Source: Croceivirga lutea
GTDB taxonomy: Bacteria > Bacteroidota > Bacteroidia > Flavobacteriales > Flavobacteriaceae
Direction: 5' to 3'
Assembly (NCBI RefSeq): GCF_014235875.1
Contig: NZ_JACJUK010000001.1
Coordinates: 558,001-622,000, forward strand
DNA: 64,000 nucleotides
The translations under genes were made by a program, and so were the position numbers. Below the pieces are notes generated by a model. The model ran no database searches. It was given only the letters and a program-made list of their open reading frames with translations, and was not told where the DNA came from. Positions within the stretch are counted from its first letter, which is position 1. Each line of letters starts with the position of its first letter. Shown piece by piece: positions 53,400-63,243 of this stretch.

Positions 53400-55028
53400 A
53401 TGGATTTAAAATTTAACAAGAACGAAGACCATAACAAACTAGAACTTTCAGAACTTAAGCGCAGACTTGCCCAAGTAAAATTGGGTGGCGGTAAAAAACG
53501 TATTGAAAAACATCATTCTAAAGGAAAATTGACGGCTAGAGAACGCATTAATTATCTTTTAGATGATGAAGAAAATGCTATTGAAATTGGAGCTTTTGCA
53601 GGTGAAGGTATGTATGAAGAACATGGCGGTTGTCCTTCTGGTGGTGTGGTCATAAAAATTGGAGAAGTTCAAGGTAAATTGGCCATAATTGTAGCTAATG
53701 ATGCTACTGTAAAAGCTGGAGCGTGGTTCCCCATAACTGGAAAGAAAAACTTACGTGCCCAAGAAATAGCTATTGAAAACAAGCTCCCTATTATTTATTT
53801 AGTTGATAGCGCAGGGGTATACTTACCCATGCAAGATGAGATATTTCCAGACAAAGAACACTTTGGTCGTATTTTTAGAAACAACGCTGTGATGAGTAGT
53901 ATGGGTATCACACAAATTTCAGCTGTAATGGGCAGTTGTGTTGCTGGCGGAGCGTACTTGCCTATTATGAGTGATGAGGCCCTAATAGTAAATAAAACCG
54001 GAAGCATTTTTTTAGCAGGTAGTTATTTGGTTAAAGCGGCAATTGGTGAAAGTATTGATAATGAAACTCTAGGTGGTGCCACAACCCATTGCGAAATAAG
54101 TGGAGTGACAGATTATAAAGCAAAAGATGATAAAGATGCCTTAGACACCATTAAAAAAATAATGGATAAAATAGGTGATTTTGACAAAGCGGGTTACAAT
54201 AGAAAAACACCAGCTATGCCTTCTAAAAAACAGGAGGAGATATTTGGAATTCTTCCAGCATCAAGAAGTGACCAATATGATATGTTAGAGATTATTCATC
54301 GATTAGTGGATAATTCAGAATTTGACCAATACAAAGAAGATTACGGTAAGTCGCTGCTAACTGGTTACGCACGTATTGATGGATGGGCTGTTGGTATTGT
54401 AGCTAACCAACGAAAAGTGGTTAAGAGTGGTAAAGGCGAAATGCAATTTGGTGGGGTAATTTATTCAGATTCTGCAGACAAAGCCACCCGTTTTATAGCT
54501 AATTGTAATCAAAAGAAAATACCCCTAGTGTTTTTACAAGATGTTACCGGATTTATGGTAGGTAGTAAGAGTGAACATGGAGGTATCATAAAAGACGGTG
54601 CAAAAATGGTAAATGCGGTAAGTAATTCAGTAGTGCCAAAGTTTACTGTGGTTATTGGTAACAGTTATGGAGCCGGCAATTATGCTATGTGCGGAAAAGC
54701 CTACGACCCAAGATTAATTTTTGCTTGGCCAAGCGCTGAATTGGCGGTAATGAGTGGTAATTCGGCAGCAAAAGTTTTAATGCAAATAGAGAAAGCTTCT
54801 TTAGAGAAAAAAGGCGAAGCCTTTGATGAAGAGAAAGAGAAAGCGCTCTTTAATAAGATAAAGTCCCGTTATGATAATCAAGTATCTCCGTATTATGCTG
54901 CCGCTCGTTTATGGACCGATGCTATTATTAATCCGTTAGATACGAGAAAATGGATTTCAATGGGCATTGATGCAGCCAATCATGCACCAATTGAGAAGCA
55001 ATTTAATTTAGGGGTATTGCAAGTGTAG
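53400..55028 (+). CDS. acyl-CoA carboxylase beta (carboxyltransferase) subunit
   Basis: A 542-residue carboxyltransferase of the propionyl-/methylcrotonyl-CoA carboxylase type. It opens 'LELSELKRRLAQVKLGGGKKRIEKHHSKGKLTARERINYLLDD', with crotonase-fold halves: 'CPSGGVVIKIGEVQGKLAIIVANDATVKAGAWFP', 'VDSAGVYLPMQDEIFPDKEHFGRIFRNNAVMSSMGI', and 'QDVTGFMVGSKSEHGGIIKDGAKMVNAV' with 'GNSYGAGNYAMCGKAYDPR'. 'FGRIFRNNAVMSSMGI' and 'PMQDEIFPD' resemble methylcrotonyl-CoA carboxylase beta subunits (leucine degradation), but substrate choice is uncertain. No biotin-carboxylase subunit is adjacent. Confidence 0.92.
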   Translation: MDLKFNKNEDHNKLELSELKRRLAQVKLGGGKKRIEKHHSKGKLTARERINYLLDDEENAIEIGAFAGEGMYEEHGGCPSGGVVIKIGEVQGKLAIIVANDATVKAGAWFPITGKKNLRAQEIAIENKLPIIYLVDSAGVYLPMQDEIFPDKEHFGRIFRNNAVMSSMGITQISAVMGSCVAGGAYLPIMSDEALIVNKTGSIFLAGSYLVKAAIGESIDNETLGGATTHCEISGVTDYKAKDDKDALDTIKKIMDKIGDFDKAGYNRKTPAMPSKKQEEIFGILPASRSDQYDMLEIIHRLVDNSEFDQYKEDYGKSLLTGYARIDGWAVGIVANQRKVVKSGKGEMQFGGVIYSDSADKATRFIANCNQKKIPLVFLQDVTGFMVGSKSEHGGIIKDGAKMVNAVSNSVVPKFTVVIGNSYGAGNYAMCGKAYDPRLIFAWPSAELAVMSGNSAAKVLMQIEKASLEKKGEAFDEEKEKALFNKIKSRYDNQVSPYYAAARLWTDAIINPLDTRKWISMGIDAANHAPIEKQFNLGVLQV

Positions 55029-55031
55029 TTG

Positions 55032-56177
55032 CTACTTGCTTTTCATGACTGCATTCTGGGTGATTTTATCAGTTACCCTAAAACTAAAATCTTTCAACCC
55101 ATCTTTTGAAAAGGTAAGTATATCTCCTTTTTTAGCACGAATTACATAACGGCCATTTGCATCAGATACTACGGATTCTTTGGTGGTATTATTCAAAACA
55201 TTGACCTCAGAAATCATTCTACCACGCATTATTACAAAGCCAGAAAGTGTAGGTTGTTTCATCTTCTTTTTCTCCGTTCTACGTTCAAAACGCTGGGCTT
55301 GTTTCTCAGAGACCATTAAATCTGACTTCACATTATATGCCATATTAGTAGGTGATAAGTATTCCCAGGCATCTTGACTTGCATACTTGCGATATGAACC
55401 ATTTCTGGCAATTGTAGCAGACAGAATGAGACCTAAATCCTCTTCTCCATATACCTGTATAAGTTCGACACTAGCTATAAAATCGTCTTTCGTATAAATT
55501 TCATAAGGTCGTAAATCAACCCTTACCATTCTATCATCTTTACGAATGGTCGTGATAATATTTTTCCCTGATGTATTCAAATTGGTTCCCGGTTTACCAA
55601 TTTTACCATCATCTTCATAAATATTGATTCTTACCAAAAGACTATCAGATGGGTTATACCATACTTCAAATTCAAACTCGTTCAGTTTTCTTAATCCACT
55701 TTTAGCAATAATTCGTGTAGCCAACTCACCTCCCAAGGCTATATTATCTTTCCAATACCCATATATTTTATCACCATAATTTCGATAGCCAATATTGTCC
55801 GGTATAAAGCGCTCACCTTTATTGGAAACCACCACTTCACTTAATTCTACAGTTTTGGGCTTCAAGACAATATCTGGATATTCATTATAAACCAGTTTAA
55901 TATCAGCAATAGGAATAAACAAGGTTTCATACCCCAAAGCTGAAAAAAGAATTTTGGCAGTAGGTTCGTATTTGTTGAGGTCTAAGTATAGGTGAAAAAG
56001 TCCATCTTCGTCACTGACTGTACCCACACCAGCTTCCTTTATCCCAATATTGACATAAGGTATTGGCTCTTTAGATTTACCGTCGATTACTCGACCTTTA
56101 TAGTCTTTTTGTGCGCTAACCGCAATTGTAAAAAGAAATATAGGTAGTAACACATACGGTATAATACTATTCTTCAT
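55032..56177 (-). CDS. secreted protein with two CarboxypepD_reg-like domains
   Basis: A 381-residue secreted protein (signal ends near VSAQ). First domain about 24-110: 'YKGRVIDGKSKEPIPYVNIGIKEAGVGTVSDEDGLFHLYLDLNKY...SALGYETLFIPI', a CarboxypepD_reg-like beta-sandwich. Middle about 130-290: a beta-rich region ('FEFEVWYNPSDSLLVRINIYEDDGKIGKPGTNLNTSGKNI'). Last about 315-381: a second similar domain ('SEVNVLNNTTKESVVSDANGRYVIRAKKGDILTFSKDGL'). No plug and no barrel. The function is unknown, probably surface or periplasmic binding. The adjacent remnant at 56247-56676 is a decayed relative of its first domain. Confidence 0.82.
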   Translation of the reverse strand: MKNSIIPYVLLPIFLFTIAVSAQKDYKGRVIDGKSKEPIPYVNIGIKEAGVGTVSDEDGLFHLYLDLNKYEPTAKILFSALGYETLFIPIADIKLVYNEYPDIVLKPKTVELSEVVVSNKGERFIPDNIGYRNYGDKIYGYWKDNIALGGELATRIIAKSGLRKLNEFEFEVWYNPSDSLLVRINIYEDDGKIGKPGTNLNTSGKNIITTIRKDDRMVRVDLRPYEIYTKDDFIASVELIQVYGEEDLGLILSATIARNGSYRKYASQDAWEYLSPTNMAYNVKSDLMVSEKQAQRFERRTEKKKMKQPTLSGFVIMRGRMISEVNVLNNTTKESVVSDANGRYVIRAKKGDILTFSKDGLKDFSFRVTDKITQNAVMKSK

Positions 56178-56246: not shown

Positions 56247-56676
56247 CTAATTAGATATGATACGGCCCGAATTCCAAACGGTGAATAGTTTTTGATTGAC
56301 ATTAGTAAGACGAAGATTAAAAAGTTTTACTTCCTTTTTTTAGCTGCACCACCATAATTTGAATTTCTAATGGCTTTAAATAAATGTTCATTGTATTACA
56401 AGCAAAAATTTTGATTTCTTTGAAGAGAAATGTTTTGGTAAGATACCCTAAAGATTCAATTTGTAAAATTGCCTCATCGCCTAACTCTCACAACCTAAAA
56501 TTCTGAATAAATTCACCTTCATCATTAGTCGTTGTCCCGATACCTTTGTCAACAAATCCTATATTGACTAAGGGTATTGGTCGTTCAGTTTTTGAATCAA
56601 TAATTTTACCCATAAAGTCTTGCTGCCCAAAAACATGAGCAGCAAAAAGTAACAATATTATGGAAATGCTTTTCAA
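56247..56676 (-). pseudogene. decayed CarboxypepD_reg-family gene with internal deletion
   Basis: From TTG 56676 an intact signal peptide and domain start (MKSISIILLLFAAHVFGQQD, then IPLVNIGFVDKGIGTTTNDEGEF) run into an in-frame TGA at 56488-56490, after which the same frame still encodes the domain ('GDEAILQIESLGYLTKTFLFKEI', 'MNIYLKPLEIQI') to TAA 56317. In another frame, 'KEVKLFNLRLTNVNQKLF' (stop 56247) matches the C-terminal end of the neighbouring 56681-58477 product (KEVKVFKLTLKNVNQVLF). So the remnant joins a paralogue's N-terminal domain to a paralogue's C-terminus, with nonsense and frameshift mutations. It begins 4 bp after the stop of 56681-58477. Confidence 0.8.
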
Positions 56677-56680
56677 TGGC

Positions 56681-58477
56681 TTATTGCATCGCCACCCTTG
56701 AAGAAGACTTTAACTTAAACAGCACTTGGTTGACATTTTTGAGCGTGAGCTTAAAGACCTTAACTTCTTTTCGCTGTGTTCTAGAGCCATAATCGTAATA
56801 AATGGTGGCCTTTAAATACGTTGGTGTTAGGCTTTTATTGCCTTGGTAGTTAATGTTTACCTGCCATGTGCCGGGCAAAGAGCCGTCAACAAGATACTCT
56901 TTTACATTATATCCAAAGTCCTTCTCACGCTCTATGGCATCTGGACTATCGAACATATTGTGCTTCCATTTATAGTATTGGTTTTCTGGATTTACAAACT
57001 GCAAGTCAAATTCGGCCTCTCCATCGTTCCACTCAAAAACCAAACGGTTACCATTAAACTCTTCTTGAGCGATGAACAATTTTTTGGCCTTTCTTTTATC
57101 AACTACAGCATCCCTCTCTAACATTAGTAAATTATTAAATTCCCTCGAAATAATCGGTCCAAAGTCGATGGTGTCCAGCTCTAAAAATCCTTCATCAATC
57201 AAGTATTCATAACGTGCATACATTGAAGCCGCTTGTTTTGGTTCCCTGATGTTACGATAGCTATTGGCCATATCCATATAGCTTTGTACATAGTTTGGCC
57301 TTAGAATAAATACTTCTTTGTACGCCTCGTTGGCCATTTCAAATCGCTGCTGTGATTCATAGGTGTAGGCCAAGGCCTTCATCAATACAGGATTGTTAGT
57401 ATAAGGCTGAAAATTATCTTCGATTATGGTATCTGCATAATCTAATTCGTTGTGGGCTTCTGCAAAATGGGTGTAGGCATCCAATAAAAAGTAGGGGGAA
57501 TTCGAATATATCTTGTGGTACTTTTCAAAAATGGCCTTAGAGTCTTCAAATGAAGAACTTGCCATAAATTCCTTCAAATAGGTGGGTGCATTTGTAGCGA
57601 CCTCCGCCCTACTGAGTTCTTTACCATCAGCGTAATTGTTCTTTAATCGAGCGCGATCAACAAAATCATTGTTATTAGGACTACCATTTATTGTATTTAT
57701 AACAACCACTCCTCCTGCCCCAAGATTACCATAAGATGCAGTAGTAGCTAAATTATTTAGAATTGCAATTCTTTTAATTCTATTTACATCAAGCCAAATT
57801 GGTGTATCAGTAAAAATTTGCCCATCTATATCAAAAACTGCAGGTAATGCACTTGTTAAGCTATTCCCAGGTCTAATTCTAACTTGGCCGCCTATTTGAA
57901 GCGGCAAGTTACCAACAGCTCCTATACCGGGTGTTGTAGCACCTGTTAGACAAGAACCTGTCACTTGTACACCAGGAAATCTATTTCTTAATAAATCTAA
58001 AATACACAAGGATATAGGATTTATTTCTTCTTCATTAAGAATACGAATATTACCAGAAGCCCTTTCTGCATCTAAAAAGCCCCAAGCGGTGCGTATTATA
58101 TTTTTGTTAATTACGTAGTCTGCCTTAAGGTCTTTTTGAGAACGTCTTTTGCTTGCTTCTACAGTAACCTCTTCTAACTCTTGAATATCTGGAACCATAG
58201 TGATGTTTAAAATTCGAGTTACATCTTCAACACGAATACGAACCGTTTTAAGACCTTGATATGAATAGGTTATTACATCACCTGTTTGTGCTTCAATACG
58301 GTATTTACCATTACTATCAGAAACCGCATTAGCTGCTTTGTCTGAAATACGTATGGTAACATTATCTACTGGAGCCCTACCATCAGTAATAGTTCCTGAA
58401 ATAATTTTAGATTCTGTTTGTTGTCCTATTAAAAAGGAGGAAAAACAAAGGGTAAAGAGGAGTAACACATTTTTCAT
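56681..58477 (-). CDS. CarboxypepD_reg, TonB-type plug and TPR fusion without beta-barrel
   Basis: A 598-residue secreted protein. After the signal (ends near LIGQ) come a CarboxypepD_reg-like domain (about 25-95, 'ISGTITDGRAPVDNVTIRISD'), a TonB-type plug (about 100-265, 'RASGNIRILNEEEINPISLCILDLLRNRFPGVQVTGSCL', 'AVFDIDGQIFTDTPIWLDVNRIKRIAILNNLATTASYGNLGAGGVVVINT'), helical TPR-like repeats (about 295-430, 'NPVLMKALAYTYESQQRFEMANEAYKEVFILRPNYVQSYMDMANSY') and a DUF2135-like C-terminal beta domain ('YLVDGSLPGTWQVNINY'). It is too short for, and lacks, an outer-membrane barrel. The role is unknown; a plug reused as a periplasmic or surface protein module is inferred. Confidence 0.85.
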   Translation of the reverse strand: MKNVLLLFTLCFSSFLIGQQTESKIISGTITDGRAPVDNVTIRISDKAANAVSDSNGKYRIEAQTGDVITYSYQGLKTVRIRVEDVTRILNITMVPDIQELEEVTVEASKRRSQKDLKADYVINKNIIRTAWGFLDAERASGNIRILNEEEINPISLCILDLLRNRFPGVQVTGSCLTGATTPGIGAVGNLPLQIGGQVRIRPGNSLTSALPAVFDIDGQIFTDTPIWLDVNRIKRIAILNNLATTASYGNLGAGGVVVINTINGSPNNNDFVDRARLKNNYADGKELSRAEVATNAPTYLKEFMASSSFEDSKAIFEKYHKIYSNSPYFLLDAYTHFAEAHNELDYADTIIEDNFQPYTNNPVLMKALAYTYESQQRFEMANEAYKEVFILRPNYVQSYMDMANSYRNIREPKQAASMYARYEYLIDEGFLELDTIDFGPIISREFNNLLMLERDAVVDKRKAKKLFIAQEEFNGNRLVFEWNDGEAEFDLQFVNPENQYYKWKHNMFDSPDAIEREKDFGYNVKEYLVDGSLPGTWQVNINYQGNKSLTPTYLKATIYYDYGSRTQRKEVKVFKLTLKNVNQVLFKLKSSSRVAMQ

Positions 58478-58557: not shown

Positions 58558-59904
58558 CTAGTTGCCTTGATGCGTTTTAACCCTAGGTATGACTAATAAC
58601 TCTGTCTGACGACCATTAACGTATCTAAACCCATTTTCACCAAAGAATCCTGCTTCTTCTAACATAATTCTAATATCTCTTTTCCATTCTGGAATTGTTA
58701 CCGTAGTATTTAATTCAATTGCATAAACCGTATTAGGGTTTAAAGGGTAGTTTTCTCCATCATCTTTCATGACACCTCCTTGAGCATCCCACATGCCAAT
58801 GGTAGTACCTGCAGAATGACCATATAAACCTAAAGGATGTGTATAAATTGCAGGTCTTAATCCTTCAGCTTTACCATCTGCTAAAGCTTTCGCCAAAATT
58901 TGGTTACCAGTTCTACCTGCAATCATATTTGTAGTGAGTAAATCTTGAACACGATTACCATCTTTTAAAGCATCTACCAAAAATTTAGGAGGAGCTAATT
59001 CTCCTGGTTTTCGTACATAGGCTAATTCTTGGCAATCTGTATTTAAACGTAAATATGTAATTCCAAAATCACAGTGAACTAAATCACCTGGCATAATTAC
59101 CATATCATCTGGTCTTCCAGAAAAAGAATATAAATAAGAAACCAACTCTTCACTTGTTCGTTGCACATCAACTGTGGGGTGAAACCAAGTTTCTAAACCT
59201 AAATCTGTTACCTTTTGGCGCATAAACCACTCTACCTCAGAAGTTGTGGTTACACCGGGAGTAATTACTTTTTCAGAAAATGCTTCGGCGATAATGTCAT
59301 GCGTAATATCTACTAACTGATTGTAAATAATCATTTCTCTAGTAGTGCGAGTTTCTATCCATCTAACCGCGAGTTGTTCTGCAGAAACTACTTTCTTATG
59401 AAATTTTTTAGGTAAATAGGATAAAAATTCTTCATAATCTGTTTTTACCAATCCGTCTGCTATGTTGAAATCCTTAGAAAAATTCAAACCAATTTTTTCT
59501 GGTTTACGTTCCTCTATGAGTTGAATTAATCGTTTCCACTGGTCAGGTTCTTTTTCTTTATTCCATGCCAATACAATGTTTTTTCCCACATTATACCTTG
59601 CCACTGCTAATTTTTCAATGGTATTCTTCTTTTTATCTCGATAAAAAACAAGAATTGTTCTTCTACGCGCATTTAACCAAGTAGCAGGCAGCATTGTTTT
59701 TAGAACTGGGTCTTCATTATACTCCCTAGAAATAACTACCCACATATCAATATTAGTTTGATCCATTAATTTGGGTAATAAGTCGTTAAATCGCTCCGCT
59801 AGAATTTCATCTATGACTCTAGCTCGTTCAATTTCAGGTAAAATTTGTTGTGCATTAACTTGAATAAAAATGGTAAGAAATAGAATAGAAAGTAAATTTT
59901 TCAT
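58558..59904 (-). CDS. M24 family metallopeptidase (Xaa-Pro peptidase-like), secreted
   Basis: A 448-residue pita-bread-fold peptidase with an N-terminal signal (MKNLLSILFLTIFIQVNAQ) and a creatinase-like N-domain. Candidate metal ligands are in 'LVHCDFGITYLRLNTDCQEL' (two Asp), 'THPLGLYGHSAG' (His), 'YAIELNT' (Glu) and 'RIMLEEAGFF' (Glu), so all five appear present. Expected activity is removal of N-terminal residues before Pro, or cleavage of Pro-containing dipeptides, in the periplasm. It lies between two barrel-less plug proteins; no operon overlap is seen (gaps of about 70-80 bp). Confidence 0.88.
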   Translation of the reverse strand: MKNLLSILFLTIFIQVNAQQILPEIERARVIDEILAERFNDLLPKLMDQTNIDMWVVISREYNEDPVLKTMLPATWLNARRRTILVFYRDKKKNTIEKLAVARYNVGKNIVLAWNKEKEPDQWKRLIQLIEERKPEKIGLNFSKDFNIADGLVKTDYEEFLSYLPKKFHKKVVSAEQLAVRWIETRTTREMIIYNQLVDITHDIIAEAFSEKVITPGVTTTSEVEWFMRQKVTDLGLETWFHPTVDVQRTSEELVSYLYSFSGRPDDMVIMPGDLVHCDFGITYLRLNTDCQELAYVRKPGELAPPKFLVDALKDGNRVQDLLTTNMIAGRTGNQILAKALADGKAEGLRPAIYTHPLGLYGHSAGTTIGMWDAQGGVMKDDGENYPLNPNTVYAIELNTTVTIPEWKRDIRIMLEEAGFFGENGFRYVNGRQTELLVIPRVKTHQGN

Positions 59905-59971: not shown

Positions 59972-62089
59972 CTATAAAACATTTGTATAAGATTTTACTA
60001 GCCGAATAAATTCAGCTTTATACCCATTTATATCCTGCTGTAAGCCATTTTCTGCTAATTTTAAAATGTCTTCAATATTTGAATTATTTAAATATTGAGA
60101 TTTTCTTAAATGTAATCCGAACAAAGCAACAGAAGCTGCAAAAGAACCATCGGCTGATATGGTTGTATTTTGGTTGGCAACAACACTTTCAATTTCGATA
60201 CTCTTATTTCCATTTGGTTTTTTATATCTAAATTTTACCGTAAGTAATTCATTTGTAGCAATTCCTTCATTTTTAACAGTGTATTTAAGGCTATTAATAT
60301 CTTTTAAATAAGGGCTTGATACGCCAACGGGAATTACTTCATAAAGGGCAGTAACCGTGTGACCGCTACCTAATTCACCAGCATCAACCGTGTCATCAAT
60401 GAAATCTTCATCATTCAATATTCTATTTTCATAACCAATTAGACGATAAGCTTGAACCACTGAAGGATTAAATTCTACTTGGATTTTTACATCTTTTGCA
60501 ATAGTGTAAAGTGTTCCACCAAACTCTTTTCCAAATACTTTTTGCGCCTCTTGCATGGTGTCTATGTAAGAGTGGTTTCCATTTCCCTTGTCTGCAAGTT
60601 TTTCAAGTTTAGAATCTTTATAATTTCCCATACCAAATCCTAAAACTGACAAGAAAACTCCACTTTTTCTTTTTTCCTCTATGAGTTCAACCATTGCCTT
60701 ATCGCTAGACGCACCAACGTTAAAATCTCCATCAGTAGCAAGTATTACTCTGTTATTACCATTTTTAATGTAATTTTTTTGTGCTAATTGATATGCCAAC
60801 TTAATACCGGCGCCACCAGCTGTTGAACCGCCAGCTTTCAAATTGTCTAAGGCTGCAAGAATCTGCTCTTTATTAGTTCCGTTAGTTGGTGATAGAACTT
60901 CACCTGCCGCACCTGCATAAACCACTATTGAAACCTTATCTTTTTCTCGAAGTTGATTTACCAATAATTTAAATGCAGATTTTAATAATGGAAGTTTATT
61001 TGCACTACTCATAGAACCAGAAACATCTATCAAAAATGTTAGATTGGAGGCTGGCAAGTCTGTATTTTCATAGGTTTTACCTTGCAAACCAATTCGAACT
61101 AGTTGAGTAGCTGAATTCCAAGGGGTTTGAACGACTTCAGTGTTTATAGAAAAAGGATGTTTCGCTGGTTGAGGATATTGGTAATCAAAATAATTAATCA
61201 TTTCTTCAATTTTCACAGCATCTACAGGAACTTGCTGTCCATTATTAATCATTCGTCTTATGTTGCTATAAGCTGCCTTATCCACATCAATAGAAAAAGT
61301 AGATAATGGACTAAGTTGAACTCTTTCAAATTTATTCTCGGTTATTTGCGCATACTGCTCGTCTTTTTGTATTTGATAATTACCAGATTTAGTTGAGATT
61401 ACTACACAACCATTTTTAGCTGAAACACCAAATAGCTTTCTAGCCTTAGCCGGTTTGTATATGTTAATTTTTTCGATAGTTTCTGGTTTCAAATTAGCCA
61501 CTACTGTATTATTAATGGTATGGATAGGCGTACCATCTACTATATACAACGGTTGTGATGAGCCGTTTATAGAGTTAACGCCTCTAATTGTAATATTTGT
61601 GGAAGCTCCAACCTGACCATTAGCGCCTGTAATTTGTATACCAGCAGCTTTACCTTGTAAAGCATGGGTAATTGAATTATGGTACTGTTTACGTTTATTT
61701 CTTGCCAATTGCGCTTTGGTAGGAGTGCCTACAGTTGTTACTGAAGCTGTTAACGCTTTAACCGTTTTAGTTGCATAACCAGTTACAACAACTTCATCTA
61801 AGGCTTCAGAGCTTACTGTAAGAACAACGTCTATTACTTTTGAATCATTAATTCTAATTTTTTCGGACTCATATCCCAAATATGTAAATACTAGAGTCTG
61901 TCCTTTTTTGGACTGAATATTATATTGGCCATCAAAGTTTGTTTGCGTACCATTTGTGGTGCCCTCAACTACAACACTTACCCCAGGTAAAGGCCCACTA
62001 GAATCAGTTACCGTTCCAGAAATTGTAACCGTTTGTGCTTGTAAATGAATAAATAATAGTAAAAAGAAAAAAGAAAATAGACTTTTCAT
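59972..62089 (-). CDS. CarboxypepD_reg, TonB-type plug and VWA (YfbK-like) fusion
   Basis: A 705-residue secreted protein. Signal (ends near LQAQ); CarboxypepD_reg domain about 22-95 ('ISGTVTDSSGPLPGVSVVVEGTTNGTQTNFDGQYNI'); plug about 100-230 ('ITHALQGKAAGIQITGANGQVGASTNITIRGVNSINGSSQPLYIVDG', 'PETIEKINIYKPAKARKLFGVSAKNGCVVISTKSG'); then a YfbK-type region with 'SPLSTFSIDVDKAAYSNIRRMINNGQQVPVDAVKIEEMINYFDY', a VWA domain with MIDAS FLIDVSGSMS, and a DUF3520-like C-terminal part ('FAASVALFGLHLRKSQYLNNSNIEDILKLAENGL'). No barrel. YfbK-like proteins have no firmly known role. The plug fusion suggests anchoring to, or partnering with, an outer-membrane system. Confidence 0.9.
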   Translation of the reverse strand: MKSLFSFFFLLLFIHLQAQTVTISGTVTDSSGPLPGVSVVVEGTTNGTQTNFDGQYNIQSKKGQTLVFTYLGYESEKIRINDSKVIDVVLTVSSEALDEVVVTGYATKTVKALTASVTTVGTPTKAQLARNKRKQYHNSITHALQGKAAGIQITGANGQVGASTNITIRGVNSINGSSQPLYIVDGTPIHTINNTVVANLKPETIEKINIYKPAKARKLFGVSAKNGCVVISTKSGNYQIQKDEQYAQITENKFERVQLSPLSTFSIDVDKAAYSNIRRMINNGQQVPVDAVKIEEMINYFDYQYPQPAKHPFSINTEVVQTPWNSATQLVRIGLQGKTYENTDLPASNLTFLIDVSGSMSSANKLPLLKSAFKLLVNQLREKDKVSIVVYAGAAGEVLSPTNGTNKEQILAALDNLKAGGSTAGGAGIKLAYQLAQKNYIKNGNNRVILATDGDFNVGASSDKAMVELIEEKRKSGVFLSVLGFGMGNYKDSKLEKLADKGNGNHSYIDTMQEAQKVFGKEFGGTLYTIAKDVKIQVEFNPSVVQAYRLIGYENRILNDEDFIDDTVDAGELGSGHTVTALYEVIPVGVSSPYLKDINSLKYTVKNEGIATNELLTVKFRYKKPNGNKSIEIESVVANQNTTISADGSFAASVALFGLHLRKSQYLNNSNIEDILKLAENGLQQDINGYKAEFIRLVKSYTNVL

Positions 62090-62193: not shown

Positions 62194-63243
62194 TTAGTTT
62201 TTAATTAAGCTAGCCATTGTTTTATGCCTATCTACCTTACCAGAATCGGTTAGTATAAATTTAGGAGTAGTTAGAATAGTTTTGGGTTTTTCGAACCGTT
62301 TTAGCTTAGCGTTTATTGCCAGTTTCTTTTGAATTTCTTGTACACTTAACTTGCTTTCAATTACCAAAACCAATTTCTCACCTAACTGTTCATCTGGTGT
62401 ACCGTATACAAAATAACGTTCCTTAAAGCTCTTTGCTAGCTTAGCCTCGATAATTTCTGGAATCAATTTTATACCTCCAGAATTTATAATATTGTCATAC
62501 CTACCTAACCACTTAAATCTTTTTCTGTCGATAAGCTCTACCATATCATTGGTAACTATTTTATCGTCCGCTATTTGTGGTGCATCAATAACTAAACAGT
62601 CACGTTCATCTAGAAAAATGTCAACATGTGGTAAGGCTTCAAAATAATCAACTTGTATTGGTTTAATGGCAATGTGGGTTATGGTTTCTGTCATACCATA
62701 GGTTTCAAAACAACGGGTGGGAGCATCTAGTAACTGCTCCTTTAAATTATTGGGGAGTGGTGCACCTCCTATGATTAGTATTTTTAGCTTTTTTAATTCT
62801 GCTAGTGAATTTTGAATTTGCATAGGCACCATAGCGCAAAAATCATAGGTACGCTCCACATTTTTCAGGGGATAAACATTAGGTGCCACATAATCTAACG
62901 CTAAACCTATTACTAAAGCCCGCACTATCATCATTTTACCGGCAATAAATTCAGCAGGTAAACAAAGGAGCGCCGTATGGCCTTCTTTTAAATCAAAAAA
63001 AGAAGCTGTTGCCATGGCAGAATTCACCATTTGGGCCTTTTTTAATATAATTTTTTTTGGGGTGCCTGTAGAGCCCGATGTAAAAACGCTTAGGGTAGAA
63101 CTCTCTGATAAAAAATCTAAAATAAACTTACCTATACTTTTTTCAAAAGCTTGGTCTTTTAAACTTAAATCAGTCGCATGAGCTATTAATTCCTTTTTAG
63201 AATAGGATTGACCGTTTAGTTTAAATTTCGGATGAATCAGCAT
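62194..63243 (-). CDS. menE: o-succinylbenzoate-CoA ligase-like AMP-binding enzyme
   Basis: A 349-residue ANL-superfamily adenylating enzyme, of the short form typical of Bacteroidota MenE. P-loop-like motif 'FTSGSTGTPKKIILKK', 'ETYGMTETITHIAIK' (adenine/acyl pocket), 'KWLGRYDNIINSGGIKLIPEIIE' (hinge Asp and A8 motif), and the catalytic Lys near the C-terminus in 'DSGKVDRHK'. It makes o-succinylbenzoyl-CoA in menaquinone synthesis. It overlaps the CPBP gene by 23 bp; no other men gene is visible in the window, so another acyl substrate is not excluded. Confidence 0.82.
   Translation of the reverse strand: MLIHPKFKLNGQSYSKKELIAHATDLSLKDQAFEKSIGKFILDFLSESSTLSVFTSGSTGTPKKIILKKAQMVNSAMATASFFDLKEGHTALLCLPAEFIAGKMMIVRALVIGLALDYVAPNVYPLKNVERTYDFCAMVPMQIQNSLAELKKLKILIIGGAPLPNNLKEQLLDAPTRCFETYGMTETITHIAIKPIQVDYFEALPHVDIFLDERDCLVIDAPQIADDKIVTNDMVELIDRKRFKWLGRYDNIINSGGIKLIPEIIEAKLAKSFKERYFVYGTPDEQLGEKLVLVIESKLSVQEIQKKLAINAKLKRFEKPKTILTTPKFILTDSGKVDRHKTMASLIKN

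Follow-up and report, generated by a model that had tools for sequence, protein, structure and literature searches.

What does a protein do that carries the front end of an outer-membrane transporter and ends without the barrel? TonB is understood as an opener of outer-membrane channels. If channel-less proteins also bear Ton boxes and plugs, the range of the TonB motor would exceed transport. The case examined here lies in a 64,000-nucleotide stretch of the Croceivirga lutea genome (the window, in which positions are counted). A preliminary description of the open reading frame at 56681-58477 (minus strand) had read it as CarboxypepD_reg, plug, TPR and C-terminal beta domains without a barrel, an architecture that relatives, profiles and a structural model show to be real and conserved. 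It comprises the following features.

56681..58477, minus strand: barrel-less plug protein (type A), 598 aa (ORF, domain matches, alignment, model)
58418..58477, minus strand: signal peptide, residues 1-20, without an apparent lipobox cysteine (sequence reading; model helix 2-15)
58175..58414, minus strand: NTE / CarboxypepD_reg-like domain, residues 22-101 (Pfam and fold match to 9hfj, Z 14.2)
58160..58177, minus strand: Ton-box-like motif LEEVTV, residues 101-106 (conserved in 82 rows; pLDDT mostly under 50)
57686..58099, minus strand: plug domain, residues 127-264 (SusC/RagA signature, model, fold match to 6z9a_B, Z 11.7)
57875..57979, minus strand: hypervariable plug loop, residues 167-201, with a length of 13-69 aa across family members (alignment)
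57155..57604, minus strand: TPR-like helical array, residues 292-441 (weak sequence matches, model/fold match)
56705..57073, minus strand: DUF2135-like beta domain, residues 469-591, the family's most conserved part (Pfam, alignment, model)

Pfam placed CarbopepD_reg_2 at residues 26-106 (E 4e-10, above cut-off) and DUF2135 at 534-576 (E 5e-4; 20.5 bits, below the curated cut-off of 22). In the same domain, long relatives score E 1e-10 to 3e-17, and the relative L187:5372-7924 reaches 23.1 bits against the cut-off of 22. TPR matches were weak by sequence. The Pfam Plug model did not match the window protein itself, and the plug call is based on a SusC/RagA signature at 234-262 (NCBIfam, E 0.002), the Plug matches of relatives (e.g., E 8e-22) and the modelled fold. 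Over the whole protein, the NCBIfam SusC/RagA front-end score was E 4.5e-17. Pfam detected neither VIT and VWA domains nor the YfbK_C and vWF_A N-terminal domains of the neighbouring gene product.

An AlphaFold2 model built from an 82-sequence alignment had a mean pLDDT of 88.4 and a pTM of 0.74 (for fold matches, pLDDT and motif conservation, model numbering is protein numbering minus one). Model residues 21-100 superposed on the NTE of the SusC protein BT3090 (9hfj; Z 14.2, 79 residues), and residues 134-263 on the SusC plug in 6z9a chain B, from the BT1762-63 transporter, over 110 residues with a Z of 11.7, an rmsd of 2.8 and 26% identity. Beyond the plug, the model contains helices across residues 274-463 and a single beta domain of about eight strands at 475-590, with no outer-membrane beta barrel. 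The protein is Sec-exported and presumably periplasmic.

Identity to the window protein ranges from 26% to 77% among the 81 aligned relatives, and 136 proteins of 540-660 aa from named genomes share its C-terminal domain without the VWA domain of type B (see below). Mean pairwise identity, calculated from 800 random pairs of the 82 rows, was 57% for DUF2135, 47% for the C part of the plug, 43% for the NTE, 41% for the TPR array, 36% for the N part of the plug, and 31% for the plug loop. This long loop sits where the SusC plugs of the same genome have a shorter one, and we read it from the alignment as the putative partner- or ligand-specific part of each paralog. Elsewhere in the genome, Plug matches at C13:196516-196755 and C11:122029-122286 (plus strand), in frames of 141 and 609 aa, may mark further barrel-less plugs. 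M56 sensor peptidases were considered as a second barrel-less plug family and set aside, as the one M56 protein of this genome carries no plug.

Three longer architectures share the plug-TPR-DUF2135 part. Type B (about 735 aa) has an extra N-terminal VWA, whose model matched a solved VWA at Z 13.9; type C (about 1,000 aa) has a stretch resembling CPD381, a neighbouring gene product listed below, and a VWA ahead of the plug; and type D (about 1,100-1,220 aa) has VIT and VWA there. More widely, among 296 genomes of the phylum, a long protein was matched over TPR-DUF2135 in 17, and VIT-VWA precedes TPR-DUF2135 in 15 of 15 long relatives taken from these, with the plug model matched in two; the distant, phylum-wide VIT-VWA proteins are called type V here. 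A MIDAS-type motif (DxSxS, then T/S-D-G), which we take to mean metal-dependent binding, occurs in all 42 YfbK, 34 of 44 type B, and 23 of 25 type D or V proteins, and in 1 of 11 small VWA-like slot proteins.

A quick tree was computed for the TPR-DUF2135 half from 123 rows, in which named genomes contributed a random 25 of their type A rows. V and D grouped together (support 100), most A sequences fell in another group, and B lay nearer V/D. With the phylum-wide V type as outgroup, the tree reads as cassette gain followed by losses of VIT and of VWA. Domain order, distribution and this tree thus suggest that the family probably descends from phylum-wide VIT-VWA-TPR-DUF2135 proteins. Insertion of an NTE-Ton box-plug cassette between their VWA and TPR parts would have produced type D, from which type B would have come by losing VIT, and type A, as in the window, by losing VIT-VWA.

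The motif that follows the NTE is a clue to possible TonB engagement by the cassette. L-[DE]-E-V-[TV]-V at 101-106 is 87-100% conserved per position in the 82 members (D/E and T/V counted alike), and most of it is predicted to be disordered (pLDDT under 50). Of the proteins that allowed the test, all 12 of type D had it, as did 154 of the 172 type A proteins and 30 of the 32 YfbK proteins with a plug. It is found as well in proteins with no plug after it (21 of 55 CPD381-like proteins and 6 of 10 YfbK proteins without a plug), and therefore may belong to the NTE module. The front end of the window protein is collinear with the SusC proteins of the same genome; its own motif, EEVTVEA, lacks the TG-Y seen after the SusC Ton box. 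As described in part of the Bt1763 study, the Ton box of that transporter (DEVVVTG) directly follows the NTE and is needed for transport (PMC7782687), and a passage of a recent survey, citing Pollet 2021, implicates an NTE-like domain in TonB interaction (PMC12204202).

Ton boxes also appeared, first by eye and then by count, in the VWA-TPR linkers of V proteins. Three distant VIT-VWA relatives from other families carry one without an NTE or a complete plug (L266, NEVVIVGY; L269, EEVVVTGY; L270, EEVVLLGY), and a fourth of the 13 V proteins, L271, has both NTE and Ton box in its linker; the motif is missing in the other 9. A stricter pattern, set after the linkers had been read, matched 15 of 25 V/D linkers versus 0.14 expected from shuffles (11 of 12 in D and 4 of 13 in V; expected 0.11 and 0.03), and had no match outside these linkers in about 22,000 residues. 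These naked boxes, which are followed by short plug-like scraps, may be what remains of a former cassette; profile comparison of 11 distant VIT-VWA linkers gave no plug match. At the cassette position of one further VIT-VWA-TPR-DUF2135 protein (L280:7741-10980, minus strand), residues 679-749 matched the TonB C-terminal domain (E 2.7e-5; 25.0 bits against a cut-off of 24.6). This is a single case among the relatives examined; no TonB-named NCBIfam model matched the site, and a single-sequence comparison of the region with solved structures gave no TonB match.

The preliminary description had further proposed that the protein works together with a plug-bearing VWA protein encoded about 1.5 kb away. 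The geometry and the second plug are as described: the end of the VWA gene, at 59972, lies 1,494 bp upstream of the start of the window gene, with an M24 gene in between, and the VWA gene product has the order NTE-Ton box-plug-YfbK/VWA. The surroundings are listed here, with the names menE-like, CAAX-like and acyl-CoA carboxylase being labels that we presume for such genes.

62194..63243, minus strand: AMP-ligase-like (menE-like) gene, slot border (slot comparison)
59972..62089, minus strand: NTE-Ton box-plug-YfbK/VWA protein, 705 aa, optional neighbour (domain matches, slot survey)
61778..61801, minus strand: Ton box LDEVVVTG of the VWA protein, residues 97-104 (sequence)
58558..59904, minus strand: secreted M24 metallopeptidase, steady neighbour, 58 of 60 slots (domain matches, slot survey)
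56249..56676, minus strand: debris, a broken CPD381-like gene start, then about 30 C-terminal type A-like residues (sequence comparison)
55032..56177, minus strand: CPD381, two CarboxypepD_reg domains, its relative fused to plug-TPR-DUF2135 in type C (domain matches)
53400..55028, plus strand: acyl-CoA carboxylase-like gene, slot border (slot comparison)

From 63243 down to 55032, the menE-like, YfbK/VWA-plug, M24, window and 381-aa CPD381 genes run on one strand, the first four separated by 104, 67 and 80 bp. The debris shows stops and a frame change in its CPD381-like start, and these gene remains suggest that the array has shrunk here. Among the 60 slots with both borders (out of 76 loci from named genomes), M24 was found in 58, CPD381 in 32, type B in 19 and YfbK in 10, with one to four copies of type A. 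The family is tandemly duplicated and turns over in one chromosomal slot, together with M24 and optional VWA or plug-only proteins.

Other slot contents were also observed. Small secreted plug-only proteins of 155-207 aa, some with two plug-like halves, are encoded between the menE-like gene and M24 (L178:5907-6530, L181:5823-6446, L191:871-1338, L202:4416-5036, L216:1560-2036, L237:2995-3531 and L246:1657-2151); four were scanned and matched Pfam Plug at E 6e-16 to 5e-8, and their genes occupy, or just precede, the position of the YfbK-plug gene of the window. A further slot protein type (L202:5048-6475 and L241:5030-6535) consists of NTE, Ton box and another VWA, with no plug seen. Many slots without type A/B proteins have a 587-aa gene after the menE-like gene (L072, L106, L122, L132-L134, L137, L139, L143, L144 and L155).

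The proposed pairing was examined by co-occurrence. Among 149 genomes of the taxonomic family, 41 matched the window protein at E 1e-20 or better and 35 had YfbK_C; both were present in 10, versus 9.6 expected. In 7 of these 10, the two genes lie within 5 kb, a proximity that follows from the slot shared between the menE-like and carboxylase genes, so that adjacency is largely explained by the common location. A second set was drawn from 136 genomes with a menE-like match, in which 104 loci with this gene were examined and 79 had both borders; loci on short or rearranged contigs, or whose sequence was left out, fall outside it. It overlaps with the 60-slot set in at least five loci (e.g., L038/L180 and L040/L207). 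Across these 79 slots, YfbK was independent of type A/B (6 with both, 15, 17 and 41; p = 1.0), and M24 went with type A/B (21, 10, 2 and 46; p = 1e-9), with slot counts uncorrected for descent. The typing had mislabelled L038 (742 aa) and L061 (565 aa) as type C, and two tests were recomputed with L061 corrected. In a carboxylase tree covering 76 of the 79 slots, slot contents were scattered, and the sister slot of the window (L038) has the protein without YfbK. YfbK_C was found in 2 of the 20 whole genomes behind loci holding a window-type protein, and gave no match in the genome of Croceivirga thetidis, the closest relative found (77% identity).

That the two products form a working pair is accordingly quite improbable. 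They are encoded on the same strand, 1.5 kb apart and often close by where both exist, and relatives fuse VWA to plug-TPR-DUF2135; against this stand the chance-level co-occurrence and the 50 of 60 slots that hold the protein without a YfbK gene. We therefore dropped YfbK as an obligate partner, and pairing is at most facultative. The association of DUF2135 with VWA, on which the proposal had drawn, does hold in the three fused architectures, but the fused VWA differs from the YfbK type, and one slot (L278) holds genes of both type D and YfbK-plug. A VIT-VWA protein encoded elsewhere as the missing VWA partner was likewise rejected, as VIT was found in 7 of 33 family-carrying genomes and not in this one.

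Among the remaining explanations, NTE and plug could have been re-used as stable adhesive folds only, the plug serving as a scaffold in a periplasmic complex of slot products and TonB being uninvolved. The motif in CPD proteins without a plug would fit this, as would the many non-transport proteins with NTE-like folds among the fold matches and a DUF2135 domain more conserved (57%) than the plug outside its loop (36-47%). We nevertheless regard it as unlikely, because Ton boxes are kept where the NTE and most of the plug are absent, a TonB C-terminal domain lies at the same place in L280, and the motif is conserved though predicted to be disordered. It is improbable that the protein is a decoy, whose barrel-less Ton box would draw TonB away from the transporters and in this way control how much is taken up. 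A Ton-box motif without a channel, in one to four copies per slot, would suit such a sink, yet a sink needs no TPR or DUF2135, and DUF2135 is the most conserved part. Least probable is a trans-acting plug, which would insert into a barrel contributed by a different protein and shut it. In its favour, the SusC fold and signature residues are retained in the plug, and part of a cryo-EM study describes SusC plugs leaving the barrel in vitro (PMC7782687); the length and variability of the loop and the bulk of the TPR-DUF2135 tail argue against it.

We favour TonB engagement on account of the SusC-like fold and collinearity of the front end, the conservation of a disordered motif, the Ton boxes in linkers and the TonB C-terminal domain of L280. 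On sequence and a single-chain structure, the best-supported reading, held with moderate confidence at most, is that the window protein is a TonB-engaged, barrel-less periplasmic protein. For the full reading, in which a TonB-engaged, channel-less protein of the slot family arose by cassette gain and VIT-VWA loss, we would put the probability at roughly 0.4. Through Ton box and NTE, the TonB-ExbBD motor would engage the protein in the periplasm in the manner of a SusC transporter, but with no channel to open; force or binding would instead reach the partners of the TPR and DUF2135 domains. Each paralog could owe its own partner or ligand to the long, variable plug loop, and the same system would include VWA domains, fused or separate, as an optional module for metal-dependent binding. 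A wider proposal is possible, though doubtful: Bacteroidota may hold a class of non-transporter TonB clients, namely VIT-VWA, VWA and TPR-DUF2135 proteins with a Ton box, in which the motor pulls an adhesion-type or assembly module. Such clients would be periplasmic or surface-linked, with the Ton box accompanied by NTE and plug or nearly naked, and the array in the window would be their barrel-less, VWA-free branch. Since the SusC front end is retained in the family and the other parts vary, its members also provide a soluble system for testing what NTE, Ton box and plug do in the absence of a barrel. In annotation, barrel-less proteins of this sort may easily receive the wrong label of TonB-dependent receptor.

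In open-licence full texts, we found neither a description of this protein family nor a described function for VIT-VWA-TPR-DUF2135 proteins. The closest known systems each share a part with it. SusC/RagA TonB-linked outer-membrane proteins (TIGR04056; 6z9a, 9hfj) agree with it in the order and the fold of NTE, Ton box and plug; the window protein scores 61.7 bits against the TIGR04056 cut-off of 368, has TPR and DUF2135-like domains in place of the barrel, and differs further by some 23 additional residues behind the Ton box and by its long, variable plug loop. The VIT-VWA-TPR-DUF2135 proteins of the phylum (PF08487 and PF09906) are homologous in the TPR-DUF2135 half, and type D has all parts, whereas the window protein lacks VIT and VWA, and most distant members lack NTE or plug. 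The YfbK family (PF12034, PF12450), represented here by the neighbouring gene with its own NTE-Ton box-plug, has different VWA and C-terminal domains and no TPR or DUF2135, and the window family does not need it. With BamP of the F. johnsoniae BAM complex (NF053692), one NTE-like domain is common (E 7e-10; Z 10.7 to 9n2d chain E, which we take to be BamP); membership was rejected because only residues 1-121 match, at 38.7 bits versus a cut-off of 230. Finally, part of a survey puts forward periplasmic VWA proteins that are coupled to a motor and have a TPR neighbour (PMC12204202). These transducers, in which VWA and TPR are linked to a Ton/Tol-type motor, are alike in concept; as that part of the survey presents them, they are inner-membrane proteins encoded beside motor genes, whereas the proteins described here would represent the receiver end, with Ton box and plug.
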